Part shown: piece by piece, positions 8,883 through 25,881 of the stretch
How the letters are laid out: each line of letters opens with the position of its first letter
Numbering within the stretch: the first letter of the stretch is position 1
Source of the DNA: a virus
Strand: one strand, 5' to 3'
IMG/VR virus record: IMGVR_UViG_3300028592_000003
Coordinates: 1 to 28,371 of that record
Length of the DNA: 28,371 nucleotides
The notes under the pieces: generated by a model
What the model was told of the DNA's origin: nothing
Seen by the model: only the letters and a program-made list of their open reading frames with translations
Databases searched by the model: none
Program-made: the position numbers and the translations under genes

Positions 8883-9085
8883 CTACGCCCCCCTCTCGTC
8901 AGGGTCATGTCAATTGCCCGGTCCAACAGTAGCGCAGAAAATCCTCCGACGATATACCCGGCCGGAGCGAGGAACAAGGCCACGCCCCAGGTGATCGCCG
9001 CAAGTCCTGCGACAGAAAGCCACATCGACGAAAGGGTCGTCAGATACGCGCGCACACCATCGGGAAGCGCATTCCACATCTTCAT
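8879..9085 (-). CDS. Small membrane protein between terminase and portal
   Basis: 68 residues; its ATG overlaps the last base of the terminase stop. The middle has two hydrophobic stretches (about residues 18-38 and 40-54), including LSVAGLAAITWGVALFLAP and YIVGGFSALLLD, and a basic C-terminus (TLTRGGRR). A two-segment hairpin membrane protein is expected. Small membrane proteins at this position are common in Streptomyces siphoviruses and have no settled role; a holin or superinfection-exclusion role is possible but unproven. Confidence 0.72.
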   Translation of the reverse strand: MKMWNALPDGVRAYLTTLSSMWLSVAGLAAITWGVALFLAPAGYIVGGFSALLLDRAIDMTLTRGGRR

Positions 9086-10404
9086 CAGCAGGGGTCCCCC
9101 GGGCGTCGTCGGACCCGGCTCACCAGGTCGAGCTTGGCCACGACATACCTCATCGCGTCCATTCCATGGTCATTCATCTTCAGGGGCGCTTCCTTGGGGG
9201 CCTTGTTCCCTGTGTCGTCCCACACGTAGTCGGAGATCTCATCGATCGTGGACGTCGGCTTGCCCGCGTTGCGCAACTCGGAGTCCTCGTGAATCAAGGC
9301 GTCCCGGAAGAAGAAGATGCGGGGCTTTCCGTCGGCCAGCACCTCGAACCGTTTCTGCGTGGCCTGGATACCCCGAGACACATCTTTCTTGGCCTTGTTC
9401 ACGTACAGACCTTCGAGGTGCTTCATGAGGGTGGCGCGGTCCTCGGCATCATGGTCGGCGAGGATGTACGGCTTCGGATTGCGCGGATACTTCTTGATCT
9501 GATGCAGGATGCGCCTGGCGTGATCCTCCACCAGCGTCTTCGAGTGGTAGATCTCCCTGGTCAGATACAGCCGCCCGTCAGGGTCGACGCGCCACCACTG
9601 CGCGACGAACGGGTTCACGAAACCGAAGTCGATGCTGATGTACAACGGCCAGTCGTACGGCACCTTGAAACTGTCGATGACGTGGACCGCCGGGTCGAAG
9701 TCCTCGTAGATCTGCCCCTCCGCCGCAACCCACCGACCCCAGCGCATCCGCTGATGCCGTGCGCCTTTCAGGGTGTCCAGGCTGTCGAGGTACTCCCTCC
9801 CCACCGGCGTCCAGTCGGTGCCGTCGTGGTACGCCGGGTTGTCCTCGTGCTTGGAGTACAGCATCTTCGTACGACCGTCGTCCGCCCGGCGCTTCAGGTG
9901 ATGCGTCGGTGCTCCCGGGTTGGTCGCCATGATCAACTGCTGGTAGCTGAGCACGTTGTTGCGCAGGCGCGTGATGAGGGTGTCGAGATCCTCGTCGGTT
10001 ACCTCGATCGCCTCGTCCACGAAGACGATGTCGAACTCGGTCGACAGCAGACGGGACGCCTTGTCCAAGCCGGACACCAGGATCGTGGAGCCGTTGTTGT
10101 ACCGGAACGCAGGGGGTTCCTGGGCGCTTCCTCCGTAGAAATGCAGCATCCCGGAGCCGATGGCCTCGGCGGCGACCTTCTCCTTGAAGGTCACCAGCGT
10201 CGACGAGGCCAGCGAGGCATGCGTCTTGCGGACGATCAGGGCACGGACCTTCGGTGTCATCAGGCACGCCAGGTGAATCTTCATCAGGCACGCCACCGAC
10301 TTGCCCGTACCGGCGGCCCCAGACATCAGGACTTCACGCCCCCGGTACTTGAACAGATCGACGGCTGCCCCGCGCGGAACGTACTTCACGGTTGCCGTGC
10401 TCAT
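9085..10404 (-). CDS. Terminase large subunit (ATPase-nuclease)
   Basis: 439 residues; ATG at 10404 follows the small-subunit stop by one base. The ATPase part shows Walker A SGAAGTGKS (residues 28-36) and Walker B FDIVFVDE (124-131). The RNase-H-like nuclease shows SIDFGF with Asp259, the ILADHDAED region with Asp317/319, and MNDHGMDAMRY with Asp416. It packages DNA into proheads and cuts concatemers. The type (cos or headful) cannot be told from these residues; the circular, gene-internal contig closure fits either permuted headful genomes or an intracellular circle. Confidence 0.96.
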   Translation of the reverse strand: MSTATVKYVPRGAAVDLFKYRGREVLMSGAAGTGKSVACLMKIHLACLMTPKVRALIVRKTHASLASSTLVTFKEKVAAEAIGSGMLHFYGGSAQEPPAFRYNNGSTILVSGLDKASRLLSTEFDIVFVDEAIEVTDEDLDTLITRLRNNVLSYQQLIMATNPGAPTHHLKRRADDGRTKMLYSKHEDNPAYHDGTDWTPVGREYLDSLDTLKGARHQRMRWGRWVAAEGQIYEDFDPAVHVIDSFKVPYDWPLYISIDFGFVNPFVAQWWRVDPDGRLYLTREIYHSKTLVEDHARRILHQIKKYPRNPKPYILADHDAEDRATLMKHLEGLYVNKAKKDVSRGIQATQKRFEVLADGKPRIFFFRDALIHEDSELRNAGKPTSTIDEISDYVWDDTGNKAPKEAPLKMNDHGMDAMRYVVAKLDLVSRVRRRPGDPC

Positions 10405-10405
10405 G

Positions 10406-10927
10406 TCACGCCAGATCCGTGACGTCTACGCCGACAACCTCGTACTTCACGGTGCCGGACTGCTCGACCTTGGTCGGCTGGTCCAGGCCCTCCAGCTTGC
10501 GGTACGACTCCGCGATGGACTGCATGCGCGCCAGGGCAGCCAGGGCAGGCGCTGCATCGACCAGCGGGTCGCCAGTCTCCGGGTGCGTGACGACCTTGCC
10601 GTGGGCGGTGACGTAATGGGTCTCGTTCTTGATCCGCTCCGCCTCGCGGTACTGCTCGTCCAGGCGCTGCCGCTCGAACTCCCGGGCCACGTCGGTGGCG
10701 TCGGCTCGGGCAGCCTTGTACGCGCGCTGCACGCGGCTCCAGGCCGTCTGGTACGAGCAGCCCATGCGCTCGCCGATCTCGCGGTACGTCATGCGCTTTC
10801 CACGCAGGCGGGCGGCCTCGATTTCCAGGGCGCGCACATCGTCACGCGTGCGGCTCCCCTCGGGCTCCTCTCCTTCGCGAAGCAGGCCGAGTTCTGCCTT
10901 CGGGTCGGTGTCCAGGGGGTCTGTCAT
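10406..10927 (-). CDS. Terminase small subunit
   Basis: 173 residues; ATG at 10927 with GGAGG at 5-nt spacing. A helix-turn-helix is visible at about residues 45-70 (KRMTYREIGERMGCSYQTAW), as in DNA-recognition domains of small terminases. A helical oligomerisation region follows (FERQRLDEQYREAERIKNE), then a C-terminal tail that would contact the large subunit. It is the first gene of the virion operon and lies behind a palindrome-bearing promoter region. Confidence 0.88.
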   Translation of the reverse strand: MTDPLDTDPKAELGLLREGEEPEGSRTRDDVRALEIEAARLRGKRMTYREIGERMGCSYQTAWSRVQRAYKAARADATDVAREFERQRLDEQYREAERIKNETHYVTAHGKVVTHPETGDPLVDAAPALAALARMQSIAESYRKLEGLDQPTKVEQSGTVKYEVVGVDVTDLA

Positions 10928-10982
10928 CGAGTCCTCCGATTGCTTACGTCAAGTTCATGACAAGTAGAGAGTAGCTAGATGT

Positions 10983-10996
10983 GACAACGTTGTCAT
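10983..10996. promoter_or_regulatory. 14-bp palindrome upstream of the terminase operon
   Basis: TGACAACGTTGTCA is a perfect palindrome, and the identical 14 bases occur at 16540-16553 upstream of the recombinase gene. On the minus strand ATGACA-17-TACTCT could be a promoter, whose -35 would overlap this site. A dimeric regulator binding both sites could link virion production to recombination. A 13-mer (ACGTCAAGTTCAT) is also shared, at 10946-10958 and 16576-16588. Confidence 0.7.
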
Positions 10997-11022
10997 GTAC
11001 CTGTTCGTCAGGCGGCAAGCGA

Positions 11023-11056
11023 AAGCCCCGGGGGCGTCTGCTACCCCGGGGCTTTC
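11023..11056 (-). terminator. Bidirectional-looking terminator between plasmid and virion halves
   Basis: AAAGCCCCGGGG (11023-11034) and its reverse complement (11045-11056) form a perfect 12-bp stem with a 10-nt loop; each strand ends the stem with CTTT. It separates the last gene of the transfer operon (stop at 11118) from the terminase promoter region. Confidence 0.8.
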
Positions 11057-11117
11057 TGGAGGACGACTCCCAGGTCATCCCGCGCTTTGACATCGTCTCA
11101 TGTCATGTACGCGTCGG

Positions 11118-11546
11118 CTAGTTCTTGCGTCGATTTCGAGCGATCCTTCGGTGGTCCTCCAGCGAGAGGCTTCCGTGGAAACCGCCCCGTCGGCAGTACG
11201 GGACGGTCCACCCCGAGCGTTCGGTGAGAATGGCGATCTGTCCGCCACACGCCCCGCACAGTCCGCCCGTCTCCCATGGGCCGGAGTGCCAGACGCTCCC
11301 GAGTCGGACCGGCTCCGAGTAGCCAGGGTCGTCGGCGTCGTACCTGTGAACCTGCTTCCATGCGTACAGGCGTACGCCTGCCTCGTTGTCGGAGATGACC
11401 GTGTTGTTTCCACGGATCAGCGCATACATCATCTCCCCGTCGATCGTCGTGGCCTCCACCACCAGAGGAGTGTCATCGCTCTTCACTTCGTTCCCCCAGA
11501 CGTCGAATCCGTCGTCATCGTGCATCCCATAGTGGTCGTTCGCCAC
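11118..11546 (-). CDS. Hypothetical protein with CxxC zinc-binding pattern, transfer operon
   Basis: 142 residues from GTG at 11546, chosen because AGGAG lies 4 nt upstream and the previous stop is 8 nt away. It begins VANDHYGMHDDDGFDVWGNE. It has an acidic N-terminus, a middle beta region (LVVEATTIDGEMMYALIRG), then CGACGGQ and a later Cys (VPYCRR), which may hold a metal. The C-terminus is basic (DHRRIARNRRKN). It is the last gene of the TraB-SpdB operon and ends before a strong terminator. No function recognised. Confidence 0.7.
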   Translation of the reverse strand: MANDHYGMHDDDGFDVWGNEVKSDDTPLVVEATTIDGEMMYALIRGNNTVISDNEAGVRLYAWKQVHRYDADDPGYSEPVRLGSVWHSGPWETGGLCGACGGQIAILTERSGWTVPYCRRGGFHGSLSLEDHRRIARNRRKN

Positions 11547-11554
11547 GTCTCTCC

Positions 11555-12472
11555 TCAGAGGTAGGGACCGTCGAGCTTCTTGCGCTCCCGGCGGACAGTA
11601 GCCGCCACGGAGTCCTTGTTGGCGGTCGGAACGGCGGCCAGGACAGCGGCGACGACGTCCTTGTTCGGCGAACCGTTCGCGATCTGTTCGCGAACAAGTT
11701 CGGCGATGTTCGCGGGTTCGGGAACAGCGAACTCGCTGGTCACCGGCATGTTCGCCTTGGTGATCGCGAACTGTTCGGCGTCGTGTTCGGCGATGTTCGC
11801 CGTGGTGTTCGGCTGTTCGGCCGGTGCTCGCTCGACCGTGATCGCCCCTCCCCGCTCGTGCTCCAGGGCGGCGATCAGGCGGGCCGTCTCGTCGTCCATC
11901 AGGTACTCGTCCCGCTTGGACTGGGCGAGCGCCTTGCGCAGTCCGGCCCGCTGCTGACGCTGCCGCAGGAGCACCTGGTACTCCTTGTCGAGGCGGACCC
12001 GGGTGGTCTCCATGGCGATGAACCACACGCCCTTCGCGGCCAGGGAGACGGCCGCCCCGATGACGCCGACGAACACCGCGTCCACCAGGTGGCCGTGCCA
12101 GACGATCGCCGCCATGGACACCAACAGCGCGGCGACACCGGCGTTGCGCGGCAGCTTGATCTTCTCGTCGTCGTACCGGTTCAGGTATTCGGCGACCAGG
12201 CACGCCGCCCAGGCCACGTCGAAGACTCCGGCGACGCCGTAGCCCCACCCGGGGGCCAGTTGGTTCAGCATGGACCCGATGGCCACGGTGCCCCAGACGA
12301 TCGCCCCGACGGTCATCAGGATCGCGGCGACGAACAGGGCCTTGCGCAGCAGTGCGTCCAGGTTGAACGGGATGCGAGGGACGGACTCGGTGTAGTCCTC
12401 GTCGAACGTGACGTTCTCGCCGTCCACGACCTTCGTGACCTCACGCTGGCGCGTGATCTGGCGGAGCTTCAT
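11555..12472 (-). CDS. SpdB-like (DUF2637-type) multi-pass membrane protein
   Basis: 305 residues; its ATG overlaps the translocase stop (ATGA), so the two are coupled. Four membrane helices are predicted by eye at about residues 44-66, 74-97, 110-126 and 128-152, with conserved-looking WGYGVAGVFDVAWAACLVAEYL. A cytoplasmic coiled or charged part (LRQRQQRAGLRKALAQ) and a low-complexity Ala-rich tail ending in basic RRERKKLDG follow. This matches the Spd spread proteins encoded next to tra in Streptomyces plasmids and AICEs, which help DNA move from the first recipient compartment to neighbours through mycelial septa. The 3' coding part carries an unusual density of TGTTCG words. Confidence 0.78.
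   Translation of the reverse strand: MKLRQITRQREVTKVVDGENVTFDEDYTESVPRIPFNLDALLRKALFVAAILMTVGAIVWGTVAIGSMLNQLAPGWGYGVAGVFDVAWAACLVAEYLNRYDDEKIKLPRNAGVAALLVSMAAIVWHGHLVDAVFVGVIGAAVSLAAKGVWFIAMETTRVRLDKEYQVLLRQRQQRAGLRKALAQSKRDEYLMDDETARLIAALEHERGGAITVERAPAEQPNTTANIAEHDAEQFAITKANMPVTSEFAVPEPANIAELVREQIANGSPNKDVVAAVLAAVPTANKDSVAATVRRERKKLDGPYL
11662..11819. repeat. Cluster of TGTTCG/CGAACA words inside the spdB-like gene
   Basis: Nine TGTTCG copies and one CGAACA copy lie within 158 bp (starts at 11662, 11685, 11707, 11749, 11772, 11784, 11794, 11806 and 11814; reverse copy at 11691), plus more GTTCG pentamers. They fall in different codon phases (for example GCC GAA CAG and GCG AAC ATG), so amino-acid repetition alone does not explain them. 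This could be a clt-like loading site for the TraB-type translocase or a regulator array. Low-complexity sequence remains an alternative. Confidence 0.45.
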
Positions 12473-14088
12473 GCTTCCGTTCCCTTCGTGCGGTCCGCCT
12501 GATCGGCGGTCGTGAGTACCAGCGAGTACTTTTTGTCCTGGTTTGCGGTAACTTCTCCGGCGGCCACCAGCTTGGCGGCGGCCCGGGAGACGGCTCCCCG
12601 GTCCCGGCCGATCTGCCGGGCGATCTCGTTGTTGCCAATCGGCTCGGGGGAGAAGCCCAGCGCCATGCGGATCTCGTCCGCCACGGTCACCTTGACCTCC
12701 AACTTGGCTCGCTCGGGCTTCTTCACCTCCGGCACCACGTGGGTCTGTGCGGGAATCTGAGGGCCGTTCAGGTGAACGGTGGGGTCGTAGGTGGGGCGCG
12801 GTGGGAAAACCGCCTCAACGGGCGCCTGAGGCTTCACGACGGGGACGCCCGTCAGGCCGTGGATGTCGCCCTTGTCCAGGAAGAACGCACGGCACGGCAG
12901 AGGCTTCGTGTGCTCCGCGTCCCGCAGCATGAACCAGCCGCCTCCGCCTGGCAGCGTGTCCGCCGCCCAGCCCGTGCCACCGGCGTCCTCACCGAAGACG
13001 TTCCGGTTGATCCGGGGCGTCTCCACCCGAAGACCCACCACCGCCTCGGCCTGCGTGCCGATCCCGACCGGCAGGCCGCCGGACTTGTCCGTGGGGTATT
13101 GCGACGCCCACACCAGCCAGAAGTCTGCGGCCCGGCCAAGTTGTGCCAGGGACTCCAGCTGGTGGACCACGTCGTCCAGACCGGCCCGCTTCAGCTCGGC
13201 ACCCTCGTCCACGATGATGATCTCGGCAGGCTCGGCAACCGTCGGCTCGTGGTCGACATCGCCCCGGGCTGCCATCTCCTGGAGGCGTGTCCGCATGCGG
13301 GAGCCGATCCGGTTGACCATCTCCCGGACCTGGTCCGGGGTGGTGGCCACGTCCACGCCGTCGATCCGCTGCCACAGGCTGGCCTCGACCGCCTTGAGGT
13401 CCACATAGGACAGCCGGGCGTTGCGCGAGACCACGGCGGCCGAGCCGATGATCCGCAGGAAGACGGACTTGCCCGCGCCCGAGGTACCGGCCACCACGAA
13501 ACGCTGGCGGACCTTCACCTTGATGACCTTGCCGGTCTCGTCACGCCCCAGCGCCACCGGCTGGGCGATGTCTCGGCACTTGTGCCCCGGCCACGCCACG
13601 GCGTTGTCGAGCGGGTTGCGCAGGGTGATGGCGACGACCGCCTTGTCCGCTTTGCGGCCGGGAACCAGGCGGATCGAGTCGTGGGCGACTCCCAGGCCGG
13701 TCTCGATCTGCTTGATCTTGCTGGCCACGACCTCGGAGGTCAGGCTGCCGGACATGCGGACGTGTACGGCGATCCCGTACGTGGTGCGGGCGATGCGGCC
13801 CCGCAGGAGACCCTGGAGCCCCCGGTGGGCGCACATCTTGTCCCAGGTGTCCCGCTGGAGACGCCGGGCGAGCTTGCGGGTGGCACCCATGCGGACTACC
13901 CGCAGAGTGCGCAGCTCGCGCACCAGGGCGATGGCGAGCTTCTTGGCGGCCCTACGTCCGGCGTCGGTGGAGCCGACCAGGATGAGGGTCAGAGCGAGCA
14001 GAGTGACGCATCCCTCCCACCCGAGGGAGGCGACTGCGTCGTAGATCGATTCGTCGGTCTGATTGACTGGTGTTTGTGCGGTGGGCAT
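12469..14088 (-). CDS. TraB/FtsK-SpoIIIE-like DNA translocase
   Basis: 539 residues from ATG at 14088, preceded by GGAAGG; longer upstream readings lack similarity. One membrane helix is near residues 24-41. The RecA-type motor has Walker A GTSGAGKS (201-208) and Walker B IIIVDEG (290-296). Residues 468-523 look like a winged helix (NNEIARQIGRDRGAVSRAAA, then AAGEVTANQDKKYSLV). This order matches TraB of Streptomyces conjugative plasmids, a hexameric pump that moves double-stranded DNA after its winged helix binds clt repeats. A chromosome-type FtsK is unlikely, given the small N-terminus and the spdB partner. Its presence beside virion genes is unusual. Confidence 0.9.
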   Translation of the reverse strand: MPTAQTPVNQTDESIYDAVASLGWEGCVTLLALTLILVGSTDAGRRAAKKLAIALVRELRTLRVVRMGATRKLARRLQRDTWDKMCAHRGLQGLLRGRIARTTYGIAVHVRMSGSLTSEVVASKIKQIETGLGVAHDSIRLVPGRKADKAVVAITLRNPLDNAVAWPGHKCRDIAQPVALGRDETGKVIKVKVRQRFVVAGTSGAGKSVFLRIIGSAAVVSRNARLSYVDLKAVEASLWQRIDGVDVATTPDQVREMVNRIGSRMRTRLQEMAARGDVDHEPTVAEPAEIIIVDEGAELKRAGLDDVVHQLESLAQLGRAADFWLVWASQYPTDKSGGLPVGIGTQAEAVVGLRVETPRINRNVFGEDAGGTGWAADTLPGGGGWFMLRDAEHTKPLPCRAFFLDKGDIHGLTGVPVVKPQAPVEAVFPPRPTYDPTVHLNGPQIPAQTHVVPEVKKPERAKLEVKVTVADEIRMALGFSPEPIGNNEIARQIGRDRGAVSRAAAKLVAAGEVTANQDKKYSLVLTTADQADRTKGTEA

Positions 14089-14194
14089 GGGAGTGCCTTC
14101 CGTACGTGGGTCGGCCCCGGGGTCTCGGGGTCGGCCCTTTTGCTGTTGCTGGTCAGCAGGTGTTGCTGCCCGGTGTTGCGCGCATACGCGCTGA

Positions 14195-14383
14195 TCAGAG
14201 GGTGTGTCCGTCGACTCCGGCAACGGCAACGGCAACGCTGCGGTCGAAATCTTCCGGGAGCGGGGACAGCAGGGCGACGGGCTCGCCGTAGTCGGCGATG
14301 AGTACGGACTGGCCCGAGGAGTTGATCTTTCGGAGGACCTTGGCGAGGTGCCTGCGGACGTAGGTCGACGTGTACATGTCCAT
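14195..14383 (-). CDS. Phd/YefM-like antitoxin-type DNA-binding protein, apparently without a toxin
   Basis: 62 residues from ATG at 14383, beginning MDMYTSTYVRRHLAKVLRKI. The pattern 'S..ARR.L..L...I..SG..VLI.-.GEPVA.L.P' is that of Phd/YefM antitoxins: VRRHLAKVLRKINSSGQSVL followed by YGEPVALLSP. The usual toxin-binding C-terminal tail is very short (EDFDRSVAVAVAGVDGHTL) and no RelE/Doc-like toxin gene follows; the next gene is the TraB-like translocase. It may instead repress the transfer operon, like Kor proteins. A promoter with an inverted repeat lies directly upstream. Confidence 0.75.
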   Translation of the reverse strand: MDMYTSTYVRRHLAKVLRKINSSGQSVLIADYGEPVALLSPLPEDFDRSVAVAVAGVDGHTL

Positions 14384-14419
14384 GGCGCAAATGTAGCATC
14401 TTGCGCATTTATACGTCAA
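14384..14419 (-). promoter_or_regulatory. Candidate leaderless promoter of the phd-like/tra operon
   Basis: On the minus strand TTGACG (14414-14419) and TACATT (14390-14395) are 18 nt apart, and the ATG at 14383 starts 6 nt after the -10. No ribosome site is present, so the message probably begins at or next to the ATG. An inverted repeat GCGCAA/TTGCGC (14385-14390 and 14401-14406) overlaps the -10 and suits self-repression. Confidence 0.6.
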
Positions 14420-14490
14420 CCCCTCCCCGTCGATACCTCCGTCAACCCGTGTCGTAAACTTCAGCGCGTCCCGGTTTCCACCCGGAGACG

Positions 14491-14525
14491 ACGAAGCCCC
14501 CGTCGTTCGGTGACGGGGGCTTCGT
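14491..14525 (-). terminator. Strong hairpin terminator
   Basis: ACGAAGCCCCCGTC (14491-14504) pairs perfectly with 14512-14525, a 14-bp stem with a 7-nt loop. It lies 12 nt after the stop of the 57-residue gene and upstream of the phd-like promoter. No long T-run follows, as is common for Streptomyces terminators. Confidence 0.75.
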
Positions 14526-14537
14526 GCACTTCTCGTA

Positions 14538-14711
14538 CTACAGCGGGCAGGAGGGGCACCCCTCCTGGACGACCCGCTCGTGCTTGCCGGTCGCGTGGTC
14601 GATCCGCAGGCAGATCCGACGCACACCGGCCTCCAGGGTTCTCTTCAGCGCCTGGAGTTCCGCGCGCTCCTCGGCCCCGGGGCGATCCGCTCGGTCGTGC
14701 TGCTCGTTCAT
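14538..14711 (-). CDS. Small hypothetical protein (57 aa), cysteine-containing C-terminus
   Basis: Translating the minus strand from ATG at 14711 gives MNEQHDRADRPGAEERAELQ and onward to a TAG at 14538. A strong AGGAGG lies 4 nt upstream. The N-terminal half is an acidic amphipathic helix (EERAELQALKRTLEAGVRRI). The C-terminus has ICLRIDHATG and ends GCPSCPL, giving a CxxC pair. It is last in a short operon that also holds the 99-residue gene. No family recognised; the strong ribosome site and codon use make it a likely gene. Confidence 0.65.
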   Translation of the reverse strand: MNEQHDRADRPGAEERAELQALKRTLEAGVRRICLRIDHATGKHERVVQEGCPSCPL

Positions 14712-14748
14712 GGTTCCTCCTGGTTCGGTCAGGGGGTTGCCTTGCTGT

Positions 14749-15048
14749 TCAGCCCATCAGGGTGTTGATGACGTTCTTCGCGTACACCAGGTCCATGACC
14801 ATGTCGTCGAAGAACATCCGCACGTCCTCGTTCGGGACGCAGTTGAGGGTCTCGATGTCGTACTCGGGGAGGGACCAGACGAACTCGTAAATGAGTTCCG
14901 AGGTCCAGTAGCTCGCTTCCTGCTCGCTCATGTACGCGTCGCGCATGCGCTTGATGCGCAGAGCAGCGCTGAGGCGGGCTGTGAGGGTCTCGCTGGCCTG
15001 CTCCCTCTCCTGAGTCCGAAGGTTGACCACGTCGGGGATGACGGACAT
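14749..15048 (-). CDS. Hypothetical helical protein (99 aa)
   Basis: ATG at 15048 follows AGGAG. The protein starts MSVIPDVVNLRTQEREQASE and is almost wholly helical: a charged first half (ARLSAALRIKRMRDAYMSEQ) and an acidic, aromatic second half (WTSELIYEFVWSLPEYDIET, then MFFDDMVMDLVYAKNVI). No membrane segment and no motif known to me. It lies between the 78- and 57-residue genes in an operon that probably starts at the 15343 promoter. Confidence 0.7.
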   Translation of the reverse strand: MSVIPDVVNLRTQEREQASETLTARLSAALRIKRMRDAYMSEQEASYWTSELIYEFVWSLPEYDIETLNCVPNEDVRMFFDDMVMDLVYAKNVINTLMG

Positions 15049-15106
15049 CGCCGTCTCCTGTTCTCTCCCCGGATGCGCGGGTGGGCTCTTGCCGAGGGCC
15101 CGGTTT

Positions 15107-15343
15107 CTACAGCCTCTTGAAGCGGATGAGCGTCCCGTCCGGCGTCATCTGAACCTCCAGCGTAAAGCCGTTACGACGGGCGTAGTTGCGTGCGGTGGAC
15201 TGGAAGACCGGGGTCTCGGTCGAGTAGTCGACGCCCTGGTACAGACGCCACCACTCGCCGTCCGCCCAGGACGACCAGGGGTAGACCGCGCGTGCCCCGG
15301 GCTTGATTCTCTCGACCCGAGTGGGGTCAGCGTGTTCGGCCAT
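15107..15343 (-). CDS. Hypothetical protein (78 aa), first gene of a small regulated operon
   Basis: ATG at 15343, six bases after a -10-like hexamer and with no ribosome site. The sequence starts MAEHADPTRVERIKPGARAV. It has an aromatic-rich centre (YPWSSWADGEWWRLYQGVDY) and a C-terminal strand-helix-strand part (NYARRNGFTLEVQMTPDGTL) ending in FKRL. The fold may be a small alpha/beta domain. Function unknown; its promoter carries a 20-bp palindrome, so it may be a regulator or be tightly controlled. Confidence 0.7.
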   Translation of the reverse strand: MAEHADPTRVERIKPGARAVYPWSSWADGEWWRLYQGVDYSTETPVFQSTARNYARRNGFTLEVQMTPDGTLIRFKRL

Positions 15344-15378
15344 GACATGAGCATACCAATAGACATGTCGATTGGCAA
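15344..15378 (-). promoter_or_regulatory. Candidate leaderless promoter with palindromic operator
   Basis: TTGCCA (15373-15378) and TATGCT (15350-15355) are 17 nt apart; the ATG at 15343 starts 6 nt after the -10. The 20-bp imperfect palindrome at 15356-15375 (nine of ten pairs; CCAAT...ATTGG around GACATGTC) fills the spacer, the expected place for a repressor. Confidence 0.65.
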
Positions 15379-15457
15379 GTCAGGTTCGGGAGTGGGGGTG
15401 GGGTTGTGCCTGAAATCGACGTGTCGACGGTCGGTCGTGACCTGTTCGTAATTTCGA

Positions 15458-15478
15458 CCCGGGGTCGGGGACCCCGGG
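15458..15478 (-). terminator. Hairpin after the recombinase gene
   Basis: CCCGGGGTC (15458-15466) pairs with GACCCCGGG (15470-15478) around a GGG loop, six bases past the recombinase stop. The reverse strand continues CGAAATTACG. A terminator is likely and would separate recombinase transcription from the 15343 operon. Confidence 0.7.
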
Positions 15479-15483
15479 CGCTT

Positions 15484-16482
15484 TCACTTCTCGATATCTT
15501 CCAGTCGCTCGGCGATCGACGCTCCGACCGTGTACGACGGACTGTTGGACAGGCGTCCACGTGCTCTGTCGTAGCGCCTCGTGGTGCGGGGGTCCTTGTG
15601 GTCCACGCTGTCCTGCATGATGTGCAGCGGAACACCCTTGTCCAGCCCATGCGTGATGTAGCAGTGCCGGAGGACATGGGGGTGGATACTCCCCGCCTGC
15701 GGCAGCTCAGCCCGTCGAGCAGCCCGGCGCAGCATGTGCCACGCCTCCGGCTCGTCCATCCTCCTGCCGGTACGGGTCACGAACAGAGGTCCCGTCACAC
15801 GTCCACCCAGGTACTCCTCCAGGGCGTGCGCGGTGATAGGGGGGAGGGCCTTCTTCGCCGTGGCACCGCCCTTCAAACGCACCGTGATGGTGCGGTGTCC
15901 CGCGTCGTAGCCCAGGCTCTCTACGTCCGCACCCAGCGCCCCGTCCACGCGCAGGCCCACGGTGTACAGCAGCATGCACAGCGCATACGCACGAGGGCTC
16001 AGCTTCTTCGCAGCGACCAGCAGTCGGGCCATCTCGTCCTCGGTCAGGCCCTCGGTGTCCGAGTGGTCCTGGTCCAGCTTCTGCCGCTTCACCTTCTTGA
16101 CCGGGTTCACCTCGGCCGCCTCGACGTCGATGGCGTAGTCGTAGAAGGAGGAGGCGGCGGACAGTCGGGCGTTGGCCGTGCTGTTCGGCGTGCCCGCCTG
16201 CTCCATCGAACGCATGTACGCGTCGCCGTGCGGGCGCCTCGCGTCCATCGGATGCACACCCACGGAGCGGCAGAAGTCGGCCCACGCCTGGAAGCCGCGC
16301 GCATATGCCCGGCGGGTATTCGGCGATCGTTGCGCCATCAACCACAGGGAGACCAGGCGGGGCAGGTCGTCGGTGTACGTCTGTTCGAGCTTCGTACGCG
16401 CGGAGTGCGCCTCGATCGGTTCGATATCTCGAACAACCGTGGCGATCTCGGACGAGGCTGTCAGATTCTCATCGTCGCTCAT
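15484..16482 (-). CDS. int: Tyrosine recombinase / integrase
   Basis: 332 residues from ATG at 16482. The N-terminal core-binding domain covers about residues 35-135 (SPNTRRAYARGFQAWADFC). The catalytic domain has Arg178 (GLRVDGAL), a likely Lys204, His269 and Arg272 (HPHVLRH), His295 (DHKDP) and the nucleophile Tyr304 (TRRYDRAR). All expected catalytic residues are present. It would integrate and excise the element or resolve multimers of the circular form. No excisionase was recognised and no attP core was identified. The ATG has no ribosome site and lies six bases after a -10-like hexamer, suggesting a leaderless message. Three dyads lie upstream. Confidence 0.93.
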   Translation of the reverse strand: MSDDENLTASSEIATVVRDIEPIEAHSARTKLEQTYTDDLPRLVSLWLMAQRSPNTRRAYARGFQAWADFCRSVGVHPMDARRPHGDAYMRSMEQAGTPNSTANARLSAASSFYDYAIDVEAAEVNPVKKVKRQKLDQDHSDTEGLTEDEMARLLVAAKKLSPRAYALCMLLYTVGLRVDGALGADVESLGYDAGHRTITVRLKGGATAKKALPPITAHALEEYLGGRVTGPLFVTRTGRRMDEPEAWHMLRRAARRAELPQAGSIHPHVLRHCYITHGLDKGVPLHIMQDSVDHKDPRTTRRYDRARGRLSNSPSYTVGASIAERLEDIEK

Positions 16483-16517
16483 GAAGCAAGGATAACAGTA
16501 ATTATCCTGTGGTTCAA
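16483..16517 (-). promoter_or_regulatory. Candidate leaderless promoter of the recombinase gene with overlapping dyad
   Basis: TTGAAC (16512-16517) and TATCCT (16489-16494) are 17 nt apart, with the ATG 6 nt after the -10. GGATAA-CAGTAA-TTATCC (16490-16507) is an inverted repeat over the -10 and spacer, suiting repression of recombination. Confidence 0.62.
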
Positions 16518-16520
16518 CCC

Positions 16521-16536
16521 TGACGTGCTCACGTCA
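16521..16536. promoter_or_regulatory. Dyad TGACGTG-CT-CACGTCA upstream of the recombinase
   Basis: Seven-base arms separated by 2 nt, just upstream of the recombinase -35. Its TGAC/GTCA ends resemble the neighbouring palindrome at 16540-16553, so the two may be sites for the same or related regulators. Confidence 0.55.
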
Positions 16537-16539
16537 ATA

Positions 16540-16553
16540 TGACAACGTTGTCA
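16540..16553. promoter_or_regulatory. Second copy of the 14-bp palindrome TGACAACGTTGTCA
   Basis: Identical to 10983-10996 in front of the terminase operon. It lies 22 bp upstream of the candidate recombinase -35. The remaining bases to 16770 hold the shared 13-mer at 16576-16588 and no gene that I can support. Confidence 0.7.
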
Positions 16554-16770
16554 GGCTCGCGACAACTGCATGGACACGTCAAGTTCATCATTCAACTAAA
16601 ACGGGCGGCTATGTTACCCGCGAGTAGCAATCGGGCGGCGTCTCCGTGGACGAAGGAGGAGCGACGGAAGGGGCGCTCGACGAAAAGGTTTCTTACTCGG
16701 AAGTCAGCTCGGACAGGCTGCGTCGCAAGATTTGTCACACATCCCCGACGACCGTCACCAGAACGCAACA

Positions 16771-16796
16771 GAGCCCCCGCCTTCCGGCGAGGGCTC
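16771..16796 (-). terminator. Hairpin ending the copG operon
   Basis: GAGCCC (16771-16776) pairs with GGGCTC (16791-16796), with an inner CGCC-TTCC-GGCG stem. It lies 12 nt past the stop of the last gene of the four-gene operon. The reverse strand continues TGTTGCGTTC, a weak T-rich stretch. Confidence 0.68.
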
Positions 16797-16808
16797 GTGT
16801 GTCGAGGT

Positions 16809-17105
16809 TCAGGCTGCGGTCTGCTCCTGCACGGTCGTGGGTGTGGCTTCGACCGGCTGAGGGTCCTCGCTCTTCTCGGGGTTGGGCACCAGGGTGCGGC
16901 TGACGTTGTCCTGGGCGATGGAGTGGGCGATGATCCCCTCACATCCGGGGATCGTCCTGATGGGCGTCAGTTCGCCCTCCCACACGGCCATGGGCGTGTA
17001 GTCGGTGTCTCGCCATCCCGCGATGGGGAGGTAGAGCAGGGCGTCGAGTGAGCTTCCCTGTGTCTGCCGTACGACGGCGACGTAGGGCTGGAAGTTAGGG
17101 ATCAC
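16809..17105 (-). CDS. Hypothetical protein (98 aa), paralogue of the 17455-17874 product at its N-terminus
   Basis: GTG at 17105 overlaps the upstream stop (GTGA). It begins (V)IPNFQPYVAVVRQTQG, resembling (V)IPNTTNLVAVFQREG of the gene two places upstream. The central part has small beta-like stretches (DALLYLPIAGWRD, TPMAVWEGELTPI). The last ~25 residues are acidic and Thr/Pro-rich, probably disordered. Last gene of the copG operon, followed by a hairpin. No function recognised. Confidence 0.68.
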   Translation of the reverse strand: MIPNFQPYVAVVRQTQGSSLDALLYLPIAGWRDTDYTPMAVWEGELTPIRTIPGCEGIIAHSIAQDNVSRTLVPNPEKSEDPQPVEATPTTVQEQTAA

Positions 17106-17458
17106 TTGCTCTCCTTGTCGTGCGCGTTCCAGGCGCTGGCGATGACTCGCCCGAGCGGCTTGTAGCCGTAGACCTCGCCGATGTCCCGGTACAGTTCGCC
17201 GTCTTCGTACGCCTCCGGGTCCATCGCCCTCAGCTCACGGCTGGGGTCCAGCTGCACGTCGCCGTGCTTCTCTCCGATGCGCTGACACATCTTCGTGCGC
17301 TTGTTCTGCATGGAGAACAGGGCCTGCCACAGGGCGTCCTTCTCCCCCTTGGTGACGTCGCCTTCCAGGTAGGCGATGGCGTCGCTCAGGTTGGCGAGGG
17401 CGACCCGCAGGCGGTACTGGCCGATGACGGTGTCCCGGTCGTACGGGGTGTGCGTCAC
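17102..17458 (-). CDS. Hypothetical helical protein (118 aa)
   Basis: Start is GTG at 17458, overlapping the previous stop (GTGA) with GGAGG upstream; a longer upstream reading is a shadow of the preceding gene. It begins (V)THTPYDRDTVIGQYRLRV. Mostly helical and charged (RVALANLSDAIAYLEG, ALWQALFSMQNKRTKMCQRI), ending AWNAHDKESK. No membrane segment or known motif. Third gene of the tightly coupled copG operon. Confidence 0.7.
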   Translation of the reverse strand: MTHTPYDRDTVIGQYRLRVALANLSDAIAYLEGDVTKGEKDALWQALFSMQNKRTKMCQRIGEKHGDVQLDPSRELRAMDPEAYEDGELYRDIGEVYGYKPLGRVIASAWNAHDKESK

Positions 17459-17874
17459 TTGCCCTCCTTGACAGTCTTGCTGGGGTGGAAGATCCGTTCC
17501 CCGGACTCGGCGTCGGTGCCGGTGGATGCTCCGCCTTCTCCGTCGCTGACGATGGGGTAGGCGTCCCCGTTGTGCGTCACGGCCCATCCGACGACGGGCT
17601 CTTCGACGATCTCGTGGGTCTCCATGTCCACCCAGTGGGTCATCCAGCCACCGCCGGGGAGGACACCGATGTACCCGTTCAGAGCGCCAGACTCGGCCTC
17701 CATGACGTACGCGAAGTCGGGGTCCTGACGGGCGAGACGAAGCCTCCCCCTCGTTCCTTCCTTGGGAGCTACGAGGGCTTCTCCGTCGCCGTCCCAGGCG
17801 ATGATCGCCCTCTGGTACTCACCGTGGCCTTCACGCTGGAAGACGGCGACCAGGTTGGTGGTGTTGGGAATCAC
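17455..17874 (-). CDS. Hypothetical protein (139 aa), copG operon
   Basis: GTG at 17874 overlaps the copG stop (GTGA); the GGGGGAG ribosome site lies in the copG end. It begins (V)IPNTTNLVAVFQREGHGEY and has a beta-rich body with several Trp (IIAWDGDGEALVAPKEG, GGGWMTHWVDMETHEIVEEP) and a Gly/Asp-rich C-terminus. The first ~20 residues and the start-site context match the 98-residue gene at 16809-17105, so they share an ancestor at least in part. Function unknown. Confidence 0.7.
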   Translation of the reverse strand: MIPNTTNLVAVFQREGHGEYQRAIIAWDGDGEALVAPKEGTRGRLRLARQDPDFAYVMEAESGALNGYIGVLPGGGWMTHWVDMETHEIVEEPVVGWAVTHNGDAYPIVSDGEGGASTGTDAESGERIFHPSKTVKEGK

Positions 17875-18068
17875 TTGCTCTCCCCCGTGTGCCGGGCGAT
17901 GAAGTCCCGGGTCTCCTTGTCGGCGGCCTCGAACTCCCGCAGGGATCGCTCGATGGCCTCGTTGATGAAGTCCGTCATGGTCGTCCGCTTGAGCATGGCG
18001 ACCATGCGGAGCCTGTCCTTGATTCCCGGCGACGTGTAGATCGTCAGGGTGTCTCCTCGCTGTGCCAT
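17871..18068 (-). CDS. CopG/Arc-type ribbon-helix-helix regulator
   Basis: 65 residues; ATG at 18068, six bases after a -10-like hexamer. It begins MAQRGDTLTIYTSPGIKDRL. A short N-terminal strand (DTLTIYTS) followed by two helices (IKDRLRMVAMLKRT and MTDFINEAIERSLREF) is the ribbon-helix-helix pattern, in which the strand of a dimer enters the DNA major groove. It lies next to the iteron-like region and first in a four-gene operon, so copy-number or self-regulation is plausible. Whether it binds the inverted arms around its promoter or the palindromes elsewhere is unknown. Confidence 0.82.
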   Translation of the reverse strand: MAQRGDTLTIYTSPGIKDRLRMVAMLKRTTMTDFINEAIERSLREFEAADKETRDFIARHTGESK

Positions 18069-18115
18069 ACGCCTAGCTTAACGCTCGTCTATCAACCAAG
18101 CAAGATTAAGAGCGT
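18069..18115 (-). promoter_or_regulatory. Candidate leaderless promoter of the copG operon
   Basis: TTGCTT (18098-18103) and TAAGCT (18075-18080) are 17 nt apart, with the ATG 6 nt after the -10. ACGCTC (18081-18086) and GAGCGT (18110-18115) are inverted arms flanking the -35, a possible operator. Confidence 0.6.
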
Positions 18116-18180
18116 AACGCAACTACTTCACGATCGGTGACCGCCCACCGAGGTGGCGACGACGGCGTCCGGGGGGGTCG

Positions 18181-18291
18181 ACCCCACAAACCCCACATTT
18201 TTTGCATCTATGAGCGTCAGTCGTTTTCTACTGGGCTACAGGCGGTTTCTTGCGTACGGAGGAACGTAAAAAAATGTGGGGTTTGTGGGGT
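18181..18291. repeat. Perfect 23-bp inverted repeat around a 65-bp AT-richer spacer
   Basis: 18181-18203 and 18269-18291 are exact reverse complements, each holding two iteron words next to a run of T or A. The spacer (18204-18268) is less GC-rich than most of the window. The A/T runs facing the spacer could help melting, so this is the most likely unwinding part of the candidate origin. Confidence 0.7.
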
Positions 18292-18537
18292 ACCAGTCGG
18301 TATGTAGTTACGTTTCAGCAGGTCAGAGGATTATGAAGATCATTTAGGCACCCCACAACCCACCCCACAAACTTCAGCTCGGACCCCACAAAGTGCTTTG
18401 GGGCCCCACATTGTGGGGTCCGGACCGTCGACCGAGGGGCTCGTACTGACCGGTCGGTGCAACATGAGAGACCCACTCCCCCACACGAGACCAGCCGACC
18501 CCACATTTGTGGGGCGTTGTGGGCTCAGGTTGTGGGG
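18181..18537. repeat. Iteron-like array of CCCCACA/TGTGGGG, candidate replication origin
   Basis: Thirteen exact 7-mers lie in 357 bp downstream of the replication gene. CCCCACA starts at 18182, 18191, 18351, 18363, 18384, 18404, 18479 and 18499. TGTGGGG starts at 18275, 18284, 18412, 18508 and 18531. A degenerate copy is at 18518. Several are head-to-head: 18404-18418 and 18499-18514 are near-contiguous palindromes, and 18380-18390 mirrors 18412-18422. P4-type primase-helicases bind short repeats at their origins, so this is the best origin candidate. A clt or regulator array is the alternative. Confidence 0.75.
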
Positions 18538-18548
18538 TGAAAAGCGTG

Positions 18549-18579
18549 GACGCCCGGCGGGGAGAACCCACCGGGCGTC
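18549..18579 (-). terminator. Terminator of the replication gene
   Basis: GACGCCCGG (18549-18557) pairs with CCGGGCGTC (18571-18579), 20 nt past the replication gene stop; the loop can pair further. The reverse strand then reads CACGCTTTTC, giving a short T-run. A factor-independent terminator is likely, shielding the iteron region. Confidence 0.78.
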
Positions 18580-18599
18580 GCTACTGTCTGTAGTTATGG

Positions 18600-21506
18600 T
18601 CAGCGGGCGATGGCCTGCATCTCCATCCAGGTCTTCGGCTGCTCCGGACGCCGGACCCGCACGCCCTTGATGCGACGAAGAGCGGTGCGACCGCCACCGA
18701 TGGACTCGTTGACGCAGACGGTGTTCGGGAGCTTCTGAAGCTCCTTGGTGAAGTCCGGGCGCTTGATCTCGTACCGGATGTCCACGCCGGGGTTCTCCGT
18801 GCGCATCCAGTTGGTGAAGCCGTTCCAAATCTCCTTGGGGGTTGCGGAGTACTCGGGGTCGTACTCCAGCTCCTCCTCGAAGTACTGCTGGTGCAGGGAG
18901 GTGTTGTCCGCCTGGTACGTGGTGAGGGCGTTCTCCATCTCCGGGGTGATGATGAGGCCGGTCTCGGAGCGCTCGACGACACGTGCGATGTACCAGTCCC
19001 GCCACCACGTCACCAGGTGGGCGAGTACCGCCTCGGCCTCCTGGGCGAGGACGGTCCCCTTGATGTCGTACCACTCCTCGCGCGGCACAGAGATCTGCGA
19101 GAGGGGGAACAGTCGGAGCCGTCCGATGACCTGGGGCGTCAGGCGGGCCTTGGGAAGCTCGTTGGTCGTGATGACCATGGTCCAGGTGACGGGGACGTCT
19201 TCGCGGTCCTGGCGCATGCGGCGCAGGGCGACGACGGTTCCCTCGGAGTTCACGAAGCGGAGCACCTGGTTCTCGTCGAGGTGCTGGTTCTTGTCCAGTT
19301 CGTTGACGAGGACCATGCGCTTGCCCGCGACGCTGTACTCCTCGGAGTCGTGGCGCTGGTTCCGTCCCTTGGTCAGCAGTTCCGGTCGTCCGGCGAGCCA
19401 GGCAAGGTCGCTTCCGAGGATGCTGCCGACGGTTTCAACGGCCTGGTTCTTGCCGGTGTTCGTGCCGCCCTCGAAGGCTCCGAGGAGCTTCTCGGGGTTG
19501 GAGCCGTGCATCAGGTACCCGAAGAAGCGGGTGACGGCGGAGTACCGGCCGTTCGCGGTGTCCTCGTCGACCTCGCCGGGGGCGGCGCACATGCGGGTGA
19601 TCAGTTTGTGGTAGTGGGGGGCGGCGACGGACAGCGGCTCACGGGCGAGGCTGAGGTCCAGGTTGTGCTCGACGCGGTGGACGAGCATGTCGTCGGCGGT
19701 GTGTTCGTGCAGCTCTCCGGTGCGGACGTCGTACGTGCCGTTCTTGAAGTTCATCAGGTAGGAGCAGCTGTCGAACTCGCCTGGCATGGTGCTTTCGATG
19801 AGGGTGGAGAGCATCTTGACGACGCTGTGGTGTCCTCCGGCGTTGGCGAGGACGTTGTACCAGCCGCGCATGGCCTTGATGTCGGCTTTGGCCTCGGCGA
19901 GCTGCTCCTTCTTGACCTCGGCTCCGCCCTTGGCCGCCTCGATGATGGCGTTGGCGGGGGAGTTGAGGATGGCCCAGTCGGTGGCGGTGCGGATTCGCTT
20001 GGCGAGACGCGAGATCATCTGGCCGAGGATGGTGCTCTTGGCGTCGTCGCGCTGCCAGTGGCCTCGGTCCTGACGGTAGACGACGAAGGTGCAGGAGCCG
20101 CTGTCCCAGCGGACGTACGACTTGCCGTCCTGGATCTCGTGGAAGTACTCGGCGAGACCGAGGTGGTCGGGGGAGAAGCTGCGGAGGATTTCGAAGAAGT
20201 CGTTGTTGACGGACTCGTCGTTGCGCTGTTCGGGGATGCCGACGGTCTCCGTCACGTCCTGTCCTTCGTTCGGGGTGGTGCTGGTGCGGGACGTGCGGCT
20301 CTGCCAGATGTAGGGCCTTCGGTCGGGACGGTTGCGGGCCGAGGCCACGGTGCCGATGACGCCGGATCGGTCCAGACCGGCGTTGAGACCGGCGGAGATG
20401 AAGATGTCGTCGACCTCGTTCGGGTCGATCTGTCCGGCTGCCGCGTAGTCGTGGGCCTTGGCGCACTGGCGGAAGAGGGTGTCGTTGCGTGCACCCTCGG
20501 GGGTCCGGGCGACCTCGTTGGCGAGGCTGATGACGTGCTGGCGTACCTCGTCGGTGGTGGCGTCGGAGCCGCTGTACTGCGACGGGGTCCACGAGGTCGG
20601 CCGCTGGGGTCGCTTGGCCTCCTGCCGCTTCTCGATCTCCTGGGGAATCCATGCGGGAACGTTGGGGCGGGGCTGCCAGGGGTCGTTGACCCACGTGTAC
20701 TGGCCGGTGACGATGCCTTGGTTGTCGGTGATGATCGACGGCGGGGCGACGGTGTAGGCGCTCTCGGCCTTGATGTCGACGTCCTGGCCGAGTCCGACGA
20801 GGTGGTCGTCGCGTCCGGCGGAGGACTTCAGGATCATGCCGTTGGGGTGGGTGAGGTAGTACTGCCATCCGCCGGATCGGGTGCGGACCATCGGTCCGGC
20901 GGGCATGAGGCCGTATGTCTCGGCGAGGCGGGCCATGGTCTGGTCGCCGACCTTGTGGGTGCCGTCCGCCTTGCTGGCGGTGTCGACGTCGACCACGGCC
21001 GCCCCGGAGCGTCCCATGTTGATGCCGATGTTGCAGTGGGGGCGGGAAGTCCACCATGCGGTGATGACCTCGGGGTCGCGGGTGGCGGCGAGGTGCCCGT
21101 GACAGATGGCCATGCCGTTGGGGTGGGCGGTGCAGACGTTGTTGACGTGAAGCGCCTCCTGGAACCGCTCCTTGTTCTTGCGGTCGCAGGGCGGGCAGTT
21201 TCCGTTGGGCTGCTTGCCGCCCTGCTGGAGCTGGAAGACGAAGTAGCCGTTCTCGGCGTAGTCGAGCGCCCAGTTCAGCATGGAGGACCCGGCGTACTGG
21301 CCGAGGAGGATGCGACCCGAGCCGTCCATGAATCCGGCGGCTCCGGGTGCGCCGGACTTCACGAGCGTCATCCCGGTGGGGGTCGTTCGGTTCGGCGTTA
21401 CTGCGGGTACGATGTCGTTAGAAGTGCTAACGACCTCGCCCGACCAGGTTGACGACCTCTCGCCCGAGGTTGACAGATTGGCGGCAGAGCCGATAAGTTC
21501 AGACAC
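18600..21506 (-). CDS. Replication protein: Prim-Pol (AEP) primase-polymerase fused to SF3 helicase
   Basis: 968 residues from GTG at 21506, chosen because AGGAG lies 7 nt upstream; GTG at 21530 is weaker. Residues ~70-280 form a bifunctional primase/polymerase domain: LNWALDYAENGYFVFQLQQG, cysteines in NCPPC and NVCTAHPNGMAICHG, and catalytic VVDVDT near 171-176. The C-terminal third is a D5/P4-type helicase with Walker A GGTNTGKN (~680-687), Walker B-like MVLVNELDKN and sensor VITTNELP. Such proteins recognise short origin repeats, prime and unwind DNA, and drive replication of P4-like elements and many actinobacterial plasmids. It is the only replication gene here and sits beside the iteron array. 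Confidence 0.92.
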   Translation of the reverse strand: MSELIGSAANLSTSGERSSTWSGEVVSTSNDIVPAVTPNRTTPTGMTLVKSGAPGAAGFMDGSGRILLGQYAGSSMLNWALDYAENGYFVFQLQQGGKQPNGNCPPCDRKNKERFQEALHVNNVCTAHPNGMAICHGHLAATRDPEVITAWWTSRPHCNIGINMGRSGAAVVDVDTASKADGTHKVGDQTMARLAETYGLMPAGPMVRTRSGGWQYYLTHPNGMILKSSAGRDDHLVGLGQDVDIKAESAYTVAPPSIITDNQGIVTGQYTWVNDPWQPRPNVPAWIPQEIEKRQEAKRPQRPTSWTPSQYSGSDATTDEVRQHVISLANEVARTPEGARNDTLFRQCAKAHDYAAAGQIDPNEVDDIFISAGLNAGLDRSGVIGTVASARNRPDRRPYIWQSRTSRTSTTPNEGQDVTETVGIPEQRNDESVNNDFFEILRSFSPDHLGLAEYFHEIQDGKSYVRWDSGSCTFVVYRQDRGHWQRDDAKSTILGQMISRLAKRIRTATDWAILNSPANAIIEAAKGGAEVKKEQLAEAKADIKAMRGWYNVLANAGGHHSVVKMLSTLIESTMPGEFDSCSYLMNFKNGTYDVRTGELHEHTADDMLVHRVEHNLDLSLAREPLSVAAPHYHKLITRMCAAPGEVDEDTANGRYSAVTRFFGYLMHGSNPEKLLGAFEGGTNTGKNQAVETVGSILGSDLAWLAGRPELLTKGRNQRHDSEEYSVAGKRMVLVNELDKNQHLDENQVLRFVNSEGTVVALRRMRQDREDVPVTWTMVITTNELPKARLTPQVIGRLRLFPLSQISVPREEWYDIKGTVLAQEAEAVLAHLVTWWRDWYIARVVERSETGLIITPEMENALTTYQADNTSLHQQYFEEELEYDPEYSATPKEIWNGFTNWMRTENPGVDIRYEIKRPDFTKELQKLPNTVCVNESIGGGRTALRRIKGVRVRRPEQPKTWMEMQAIAR

Positions 21507-21560
21507 AGAATCGCTCCTGGCTGTGTGCACATGGCGTGGAATCCAACTGCGACGCGGTAA

Positions 21561-21826: not shown

Positions 21827-22087
21827 TCAGCCGCCGATCAGTTGCACGAGTCCTCCCGCACCGCCGCCGAGGAAGATGCCCGCGCCCATGGCTATCCACT
21901 TGGTTTTCTCCAGGGCGTTGACGCGCGTCTGGAGGTCCCCGATGGCCTCGTTGGTGCGCTCGTCGGAGGCGATCAGCATGTTCAGCTTGCCGTCGATGCC
22001 GACGAGTTTTGTCTCCACCGACCCCTGGAGCTTGGTGATGGCCAGCTCCAGGGCGAGGTCGGGGGTGGGCGGAAGCGGTGTGGTCAT
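21827..22087 (-). CDS. Small coiled-coil protein with C-terminal membrane segment (holin-like candidate)
   Basis: 86 residues; ATG at 22087. Residues ~10-60 are a charged helix with coiled-coil spacing (LELAITKLQGSVETKLVGID, DERTNEAIGDLQTRVNALEK). Residues 64-83 form one membrane helix (IAMGAGIFLGGGAGGLVQLI). Similar helix-plus-membrane proteins after tail genes in actinophages are often called holins or lysis-cassette membrane proteins. No endolysin gene accompanies it here, so a lysis role is only inferred. It is the last gene of the virion operon. Confidence 0.65.
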   Translation of the reverse strand: MTTPLPPTPDLALELAITKLQGSVETKLVGIDGKLNMLIASDERTNEAIGDLQTRVNALEKTKWIAMGAGIFLGGGAGGLVQLIGG

Positions 22088-25879: not shown

Positions 25880-25881
25880 GG

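Follow-up and report, generated by a model that had tools for sequence, protein, structure and literature searches.

A circular Streptomyces siphophage-like element carrying plasmid-type transfer genes

Introduction

TraB is the single plasmid protein needed for the transfer of double-stranded plasmid DNA, and SpdB2 of plasmid pSVH1 interacts with it (PMC4170104). The Streptomyces plasmid-phages pZL12 and pFP4 are described as both conjugating and making particles (PMC4170104, PMC3583192). Here, we analyze a stretch of 28,371 nucleotides (hereafter the window), positions 1 to 28,371 of IMG/VR virus record IMGVR_UViG_3300028592_000003. By its gene content, it is a circular Streptomyces siphophage-like element of 28.3 kb that carries both phage genes and plasmid-transfer genes, including those for a TraB translocase and an SpdB homologue.

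Several described systems share part of this composition. Like the window, pZL12 (phage ZL12, 90.4 kb) and pFP4 combine the genes of a tailed phage with plasmid replication and a transfer region on one molecule (PMC3583192). However, pZL12 has three times the size of the window and also encodes ParAB. Its gp71, annotated as FtsK-like, has no PF01580 match and falls elsewhere than the window TraB in our motor tree, and the pZL12 annotation includes neither a pIJ101-type traB-spdB pair nor a Prim-Pol replicase, both of which the window has. pIJ101 and small Streptomyces plasmids (tra-spdA-spdB or traB-small gene-DUF2637) have in common with the window the TraB clade, the order of tra followed by spd, and SpdB homology with pIJ101. 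The window differs from them in the absence of spdA between traB and spdB, in having a Phd-like gene upstream where they have a GntR-type (KorA) regulator, and in the presence of a Prim-Pol replicase and a full virion operon. Actinomycete integrative and conjugative elements (AICEs; pSAM2, SLP1 and pMEA300 type) likewise combine a tyrosine integrase, Prim-Pol-type replication and an FtsK-type Tra (PMC3218068), whereas the window has a complete virion operon and no att site or tRNA target was found in it. The Streptomyces phages Xkcd426, YDN12, Mischief19 and TP1604 encode large terminases (TerL) that are 45-50% identical to that of the window, and have, at the genome end, a gene for a translocase of the TraB clade; on a circular map, this gene lies upstream of the terminases as in the window. 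Unlike the window, these are 56-68-kb linear records without a recognized Prim-Pol/iteron module, and in the phages examined the translocase has no SpdB next to it. Finally, P1-like phage-plasmids that turned into plasmids have lost lysis genes and gained conjugation-related or mobilisation functions (PMC10879196); in the window, the virion genes are still under selection and the motor is of the self-sufficient TraB type, not a mob/oriT mobilisation system. Conjugating plasmid-phages are already known, and the window represents a compact variant with a pIJ101-type motor, an exchangeable cassette apparently guarded by a Phd-like protein, and no recognized endolysin. No paper on this combination was found in the literature searched, which covered few subscription journals.

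Results

A phage circle with a plasmid-type transfer unit

Our preferred interpretation, held with moderate confidence, is that the window is a circular Streptomyces phage-plasmid in which a temperate siphophage backbone carries a pIJ101-type conjugation unit in the region between int and terS. An identical repeat of 52 bp at both record ends closes the sequence into a circle of 28,319 bp, with the main genes all on the minus strand in three blocks:

18.1-21.5 kb, minus strand: block 1, replicase and iterons
11.5-16.5 kb, minus strand: block 2, integrase to spdB
across the record ends, ending at 21.8 kb, minus strand: block 3, virion operon (terS, capsid, tail, tape measure)

Virion genes and plasmid-type replication genes thus lie on one circle, which defines a phage-plasmid by gene content. 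The nearest TerL relatives (53-62% identity) are found in Streptomyces genomes, and other nearest relatives belong to Streptomyces and Thermobifida phages and to Streptomyces plasmids; the host is therefore most likely a streptomycete. The phage and transfer halves are contiguous in contigs L002-L006: L004 runs without interruption from the replicase to TerL, L005 from the replicase to the portal, and L006 from spdB to the tape measure. A second full circle (G007/L009) closes with a 127-bp end overlap. Because these independent contigs and the second circle span the joins, the two halves can be assigned to one molecule, and a chimera of two molecules at the halves is ruled out. This evidence does not extend to the motor cassette described below, for which a local misassembly is unlikely.

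The transfer unit and the integrase gene comprise:

12469..14088, minus strand: TraB, FtsK/SpoIIIE-type double-stranded DNA (dsDNA) translocase, 539 amino acids (profiles, tree, model)
11555..12472, minus strand: SpdB homologue, 305 amino acids (hhalign to pIJ101 SpdB)
15484..16482, minus strand: tyrosine recombinase, XerC/D-like (PF00589, 5e-24)

TraB consists of a predicted N-terminal transmembrane segment (residues ~19-44), the motor and a predicted C-terminal winged helix (469-523), in that order. Both Walker A (GTSGAGKS, residues 201-208) and Walker B (VDEG) are intact, so that the protein shows the motifs, membrane anchor and winged helix by which a TraB is recognized. The AlphaFold model (mean predicted local distance difference test, pLDDT, of 54) served only for the winged helix, modelled at pLDDT ~76-80, and for hints of the motor fold. 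Profile matches were obtained with FtsK_SpoIIIE (5e-9) and NCBIfam plasmid_TraB (NF041214; 2e-8), the latter at 33 bits against a curated cut-off of 800 bits; the protein is not a member of NF041214, which we read as a related but different TraB branch. In a maximum-likelihood tree of 59 motors, the window TraB, the TraB of L004 and two Streptomyces plasmid TraBs group together (support 99/94) inside a 23-member pIJ101-type clade (96/88) that also includes pIJ101 Tra; chromosomal FtsK and the type VII EccC lie far from it. The top matches reach 187 bits for plasmid and 104 bits for phage proteins. Sequence evidence identifies TraB as an FtsK-type translocase of plasmid lineage that has both a winged helix and a membrane anchor. 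The identity of an ordinary chromosomal or phage FtsK is ruled out by the tree, though translocases of Xkcd426/YDN12-type phages also belong to the TraB clade.

The annotated 'FtsK-like DNA translocases' of Streptomyces phages Xkcd426, YDN12, Mischief19 and Quantum nest inside the plasmid TraB clade. Plasmid-type transfer motors therefore seem common in Streptomyces phages, and plasmid-phage traffic in the motor gene wider than the window element. Separately, the tra match of NZ_CP061945.1, a 5.3-kb plasmid record of 'Pseudomonas sp. SK2', is identical to that of pIJ101 in coordinates, identity and bits; this record is perhaps a cloning vector or a contamination.

The stop codon of traB overlaps the start of spdB by 4 bp, as it does in L004 and L009. 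Streptomyces plasmids show a like gene order (tra, then spd), and the closest plasmid TraBs sit in conjugative-plasmid layouts with spd genes. The SpdB homologue has hydrophobic segments within residues 47-146. Plain BLASTP detects no match between it and pIJ101 SpdB, and the homology is seen by profile only: pIJ101 SpdB aligns to the eight-member family profile of the window protein with 96.4% probability (E 1.1e-9, 168 columns). Controls with DUF2637 proteins and two other membrane proteins scored 0-3%, so hydrophobicity alone does not account for the match. At the level of profiles, the window protein is thus a homologue of pIJ101 SpdB, placed downstream of tra. It has no Pfam match whatsoever. 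DUF2637 membership is ruled out, as PF10935 gives no match up to E 10 and hhalign to DUF2637 members reaches 3%; pIJ101 SpdB itself is not a DUF2637 match either. The ratio of nonsynonymous to synonymous substitution rates (dN/dS) of spdB is 0.12 against L004, within a range of 0.12-0.34, which indicates purifying selection.

An earlier interpretation of the window (the sequence-only reading) had joined tailed-phage virion genes to an AICE-type module. Its named parts (terminase-head-tail genes, translocase, replicase, iterons and recombinase, on one strand of a circular record) are all present at approximately the coordinates it gave, and the two halves do share a molecule. The TraB-like nature of the translocase, its Walker A at 201-208 and its C-terminal winged helix are borne out as well. 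Its SpdB-like protein is indeed homologous to pIJ101 SpdB, yet the proposed DUF2637 similarity is undetectable. The label 'AICE-type' fits loosely: the integrase, the Prim-Pol replication protein and the FtsK-type Tra form the AICE gene set, but AICEs move by Tra without virion genes and the window has a full virion operon. Neither an att site nor a tRNA turned up in the window, and no integrated copy of the element was seen.

In relatives L008 and L010, true DUF2637 proteins and two further small membrane proteins occupy the place between int and terS, with a related gene in L015. This slot seems dedicated to membrane or spread functions, with or without TraB. A conserved int-to-terS operon of two small membrane proteins and a short Cys-rich protein is found in the traB-less L010 (2655-3741), L008, L015 and L037; its membrane proteins belong to no Pfam family and are possibly unrecognized spread proteins. 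A further SpdB homologue is encoded by pSITFR-21c (NZ_CP134608.1; L051, L140), a 103.5-kb molecule listed as a plasmid that also has capsid and minor head genes and ParB. Its SpdB operon looks syntenic with gp97-100 of phage TurkishDelight, and pSITFR-21c is probably an unrecognized phage-plasmid.

The motor as an exchangeable cassette

Comparison of contigs delimits a cassette around the motor:

12826..14456, minus strand: exchangeable cassette of promoter, Phd-like gene and TraB motor, 1.6 kb, strongly diverged between contigs whose flanks are 96-100% identical (contig comparison)
14195..14383, minus strand: Phd/YefM-antitoxin-like small gene before traB (PF02604), also present before the L004 and L009 traB alleles
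14385..14419, minus strand: promoter-like TTGACG-18-TACATT overlapped by the inverted repeat GCGCAA/TTGCGC, a candidate autoregulatory site

Between L004 and the window, the replicase, integrase, SpdB and terminases are 98-100% identical at the protein level, whereas the whole TraB is only 46% identical. The L004 allele of traB also occurs in L002, L003 and L005, from other metagenomes, in a backbone that is ~96-99% identical to the window at the DNA level. The divergence forms a single block. One edge lies at ~14456, directly after a hairpin and a shared TTGACGGA; the other lies at 12826 within traB, where the reading frame is kept and the winged-helix end is almost unchanged, with scattered changes of its own beside the edge. 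The second complete circle (L009) has a third allele, in which the winged helix differs as well. In the motor tree, the three alleles fall in separate lineages, with that of L004 nearer to plasmid TraBs than to the window TraB and that of L009 with Mischief19. As judged from these comparisons, the TraB motor, its private promoter and the Phd-like gene form a cassette that has been swapped between alleles of three separate origins. The window allele and its junctions were absent from the other viral contigs searched (three exact-pattern scans).

The three Phd/YefM-like genes match PF02604 at 2.6e-5, 1.2e-10 and 9e-7, with the window copy under the Pfam cut-off. By eye, each cassette opens with its own short inverted repeat, different among the alleles. 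In pIJ101, Kil is held in check by Kor. By analogy to the Kor proteins, the Phd-like protein may regulate or neutralise its own TraB.

Virion and lysis genes

The virion genes, with TerL 50-52% identical to that of Thermobifida phage P1312 and Streptomyces phage Xkcd426, are the following:

10406..10927, minus strand: small terminase-like (helix-turn-helix) protein, terS (profile matches; position before TerL)
9085..10404, minus strand: large terminase TerL
7518..8882, minus strand: portal (PF04860, 6e-60)
6752..7573, minus strand: ClpP-type head maturation protease (profile matches)
5395..6759, minus strand: HK97-type major capsid protein (PF05065, 4e-55)
2885..3994, minus strand: head-tail adaptor (phrog_442, 4e-12)
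1288..2034, minus strand: major tail protein (phrog_9522, 1e-19)
25882..28134, minus strand: tape measure protein (phrog_305, 3e-28)
22517..25885, minus strand: large protein after the tape measure, presumably tail by position (phrog_5313, 5e-247; function unknown in the library)
22101-22508, minus strand: minor-tail-like gene
21827-22087, minus strand: coiled-coil/single-transmembrane gene (phrog_5225, profile match)

Their dN/dS values (0.02-0.14 for the window against L006 and 0.07-0.45 against L009) indicate purifying selection, and particles are therefore probably still made and useful. Among the head genes sits an open reading frame (3934-4371) that looks HNH endonuclease-like by eye; this stretch is absent from the near-identical L006 and is possibly a homing insertion.

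The traB-negative relative G012 encodes an endolysin (phrog_880, 5e-53) and a holin (phrog_443, 1.5e-13) between its tail genes and replicase, just upstream of the phrog_5225 gene, and both are missing at that place in the window. A lysin-like gene was also noted by eye in the tail-replicase interval of the traB-negative G014. Neither an endolysin nor a known holin was found in the window or L009, the two complete traB-positive circles. In the window, there is no PF01510 match, no lysis-category PHROG match among the genes scanned, and no unassigned gap over 600 bp, so no stretch long enough for a lysin. A holin role is conceivable for the product of 21827-22087. With TerL 94% identical, the window and L009 are closely related, and the pairing of traB with missing lysis genes therefore counts as one evolutionary event, not as a statistical association. 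The proposal in the sequence-only reading that the element could leave as a phage particle is weakened by the absence of a recognizable endolysin. Its wider suggestion, an element that may spread in two modes, has precedents in pZL12 and pFP4 (PMC4170104, PMC3583192).

Replication and repeated sites

Replication and candidate control sites are as follows:

18600..21530, minus strand: replicase, Prim-Pol (2e-34) and D5/SF3-type helicase (D5_N, 2e-10)
18182..18537, unstranded: iteron array, 8 copies of TTGTGGGG in both orientations (repeat search)
16540..16553, unstranded: palindrome TGACAACGTTGTCA before int (exact repeat)
10982..10995, unstranded: palindrome TGACAACGTTGTCA before terS (exact repeat)
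11662..11819, minus strand: CGAACA/GCCGAACA repeat cluster inside spdB, weak candidate clt-like site (6-mer count)

The best 8-mer cluster of the iteron array has 8 copies, compared to at most 4 in shuffled sequence. The 14-bp palindrome TGACAACGTTGTCA occurs exactly twice in the element, whereas by chance a particular 14-mer would be expected ~1e-4 times in 28 kb. Both copies are kept in L004, L010 and L011; L026, L037 and L066 keep the terS copy and have another one further downstream. Given its position before both int and terS and its conservation in relatives, a single repressor appears to control the int-transfer operon and the virion operon alike. In the CGAACA/GCCGAACA cluster, the 6-mer occurs 10 times, compared to 5-6 times in shuffled sequence; the identity of the cluster as clt is not convincing, as a repetitive protein linker fits too.

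In L009 (222-1694), an unrelated 490-amino acid P-loop protein takes the place of the Prim-Pol/D5 protein, so the replication module has been exchanged too. The first gene after the iteron region of the window (17872-18069) encodes 66 amino acids, looks ribbon-helix-helix-like by eye and has no Pfam match; it is a candidate repressor or copy control gene.

Discussion

As a phage-plasmid, the element would be maintained as a circular plasmid by the replicase and iterons. Derepression of the shared operator would switch on the transfer and virion operons together, with the Phd-like protein holding TraB in check as Kor does Kil in pIJ101. TraB could then bind a clt-like repeat, perhaps in spdB, and pump the double-stranded circle into a neighbouring hypha, where SpdB may aid septum crossing and spread. 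Particles would also be made, and without a recognizable endolysin their release would probably follow from hyphal death, and the element would probably lean on mycelial transfer. A more far-reaching scenario is a phage that has abandoned its lysis genes and spreads through mycelium chiefly by dsDNA transfer with TraB as the motor, using a swappable motor cassette that it shares with small plasmids and that the Phd-like protein guards, with particles as a second, host-death-dependent route; we regard this as rather doubtful.

Several observations count against the phage-plasmid interpretation. Translocases of the TraB clade are encoded by isolated, presumably plaque-forming Streptomyces phages (Xkcd426/YDN12 type), so a lytic phage can have a use for genes of this kind. 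SpdB homologues occur without an adjacent TraB in phages TurkishDelight and SF3, in pSITFR-21c and in one Streptomyces prophage-like region, and the TurkishDelight, SF3 and pSITFR-21c records have no FtsK match at all; SpdB therefore need not imply conjugation. The lysis correlation rests on a single lineage, no repressor was found for the shared operator TGACAACGTTGTCA, and the clt candidate in spdB may be a protein-level repeat.

The first two of these observations also suit another explanation, unlikely but to be taken seriously, in which TraB and SpdB act inside one mycelium only, carrying prophage copies or infecting DNA across septa for maintenance or colonisation without transfer between strains. 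FtsK-like translocases are kept by many Streptomyces phages, some of them in the TraB clade, and spd genes have been linked to plasmid stability (PMC4170104). Yet, the conjugative-plasmid layouts with spd genes around the closest plasmid TraBs speak against confinement to one mycelium, and the repeated motor swaps along with a small regulator-like gene suggest selection on specificity, not housekeeping. Those same swaps can be read differently, since frequent allele exchange is also typical of passenger or exclusion genes. Together with the Phd/YefM resemblance of the small gene before traB, this would agree with plasmid-derived passengers that have another role or none (exclusion of related plasmids, a Kil-type host effect) and persist through an addiction-like pairing with the Phd-like gene. 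We consider this improbable in view of the intact Walker motifs, the coupling of traB to spdB and the spdB dN/dS of 0.12-0.34. It is highly improbable that phage and plasmid sequences were artificially joined during assembly, be it between the two halves or around the motor cassette. The window motor allele and its junctions do occur in no other viral contig searched and near-identical contigs carry another allele; the halves, however, are contiguous in L002-L006 and in the second circle L009/G007, and at the internal cassette edge the frame is kept and the adjoining winged-helix end has its own scattered changes.

The motor swaps on a near-constant backbone provide natural allele pairs for what sets TraB specificity, and for whether a protein of the Phd type can stand in for Kor. 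The conversion between phage and plasmid is usually deduced from remnants that have decayed. In this small family, a virion set under selection persists alongside a self-sufficient plasmid motor and without a recognizable lysin, so that the question of whether conjugation can take the place of lysis for a phage of filamentous hosts can be put directly.

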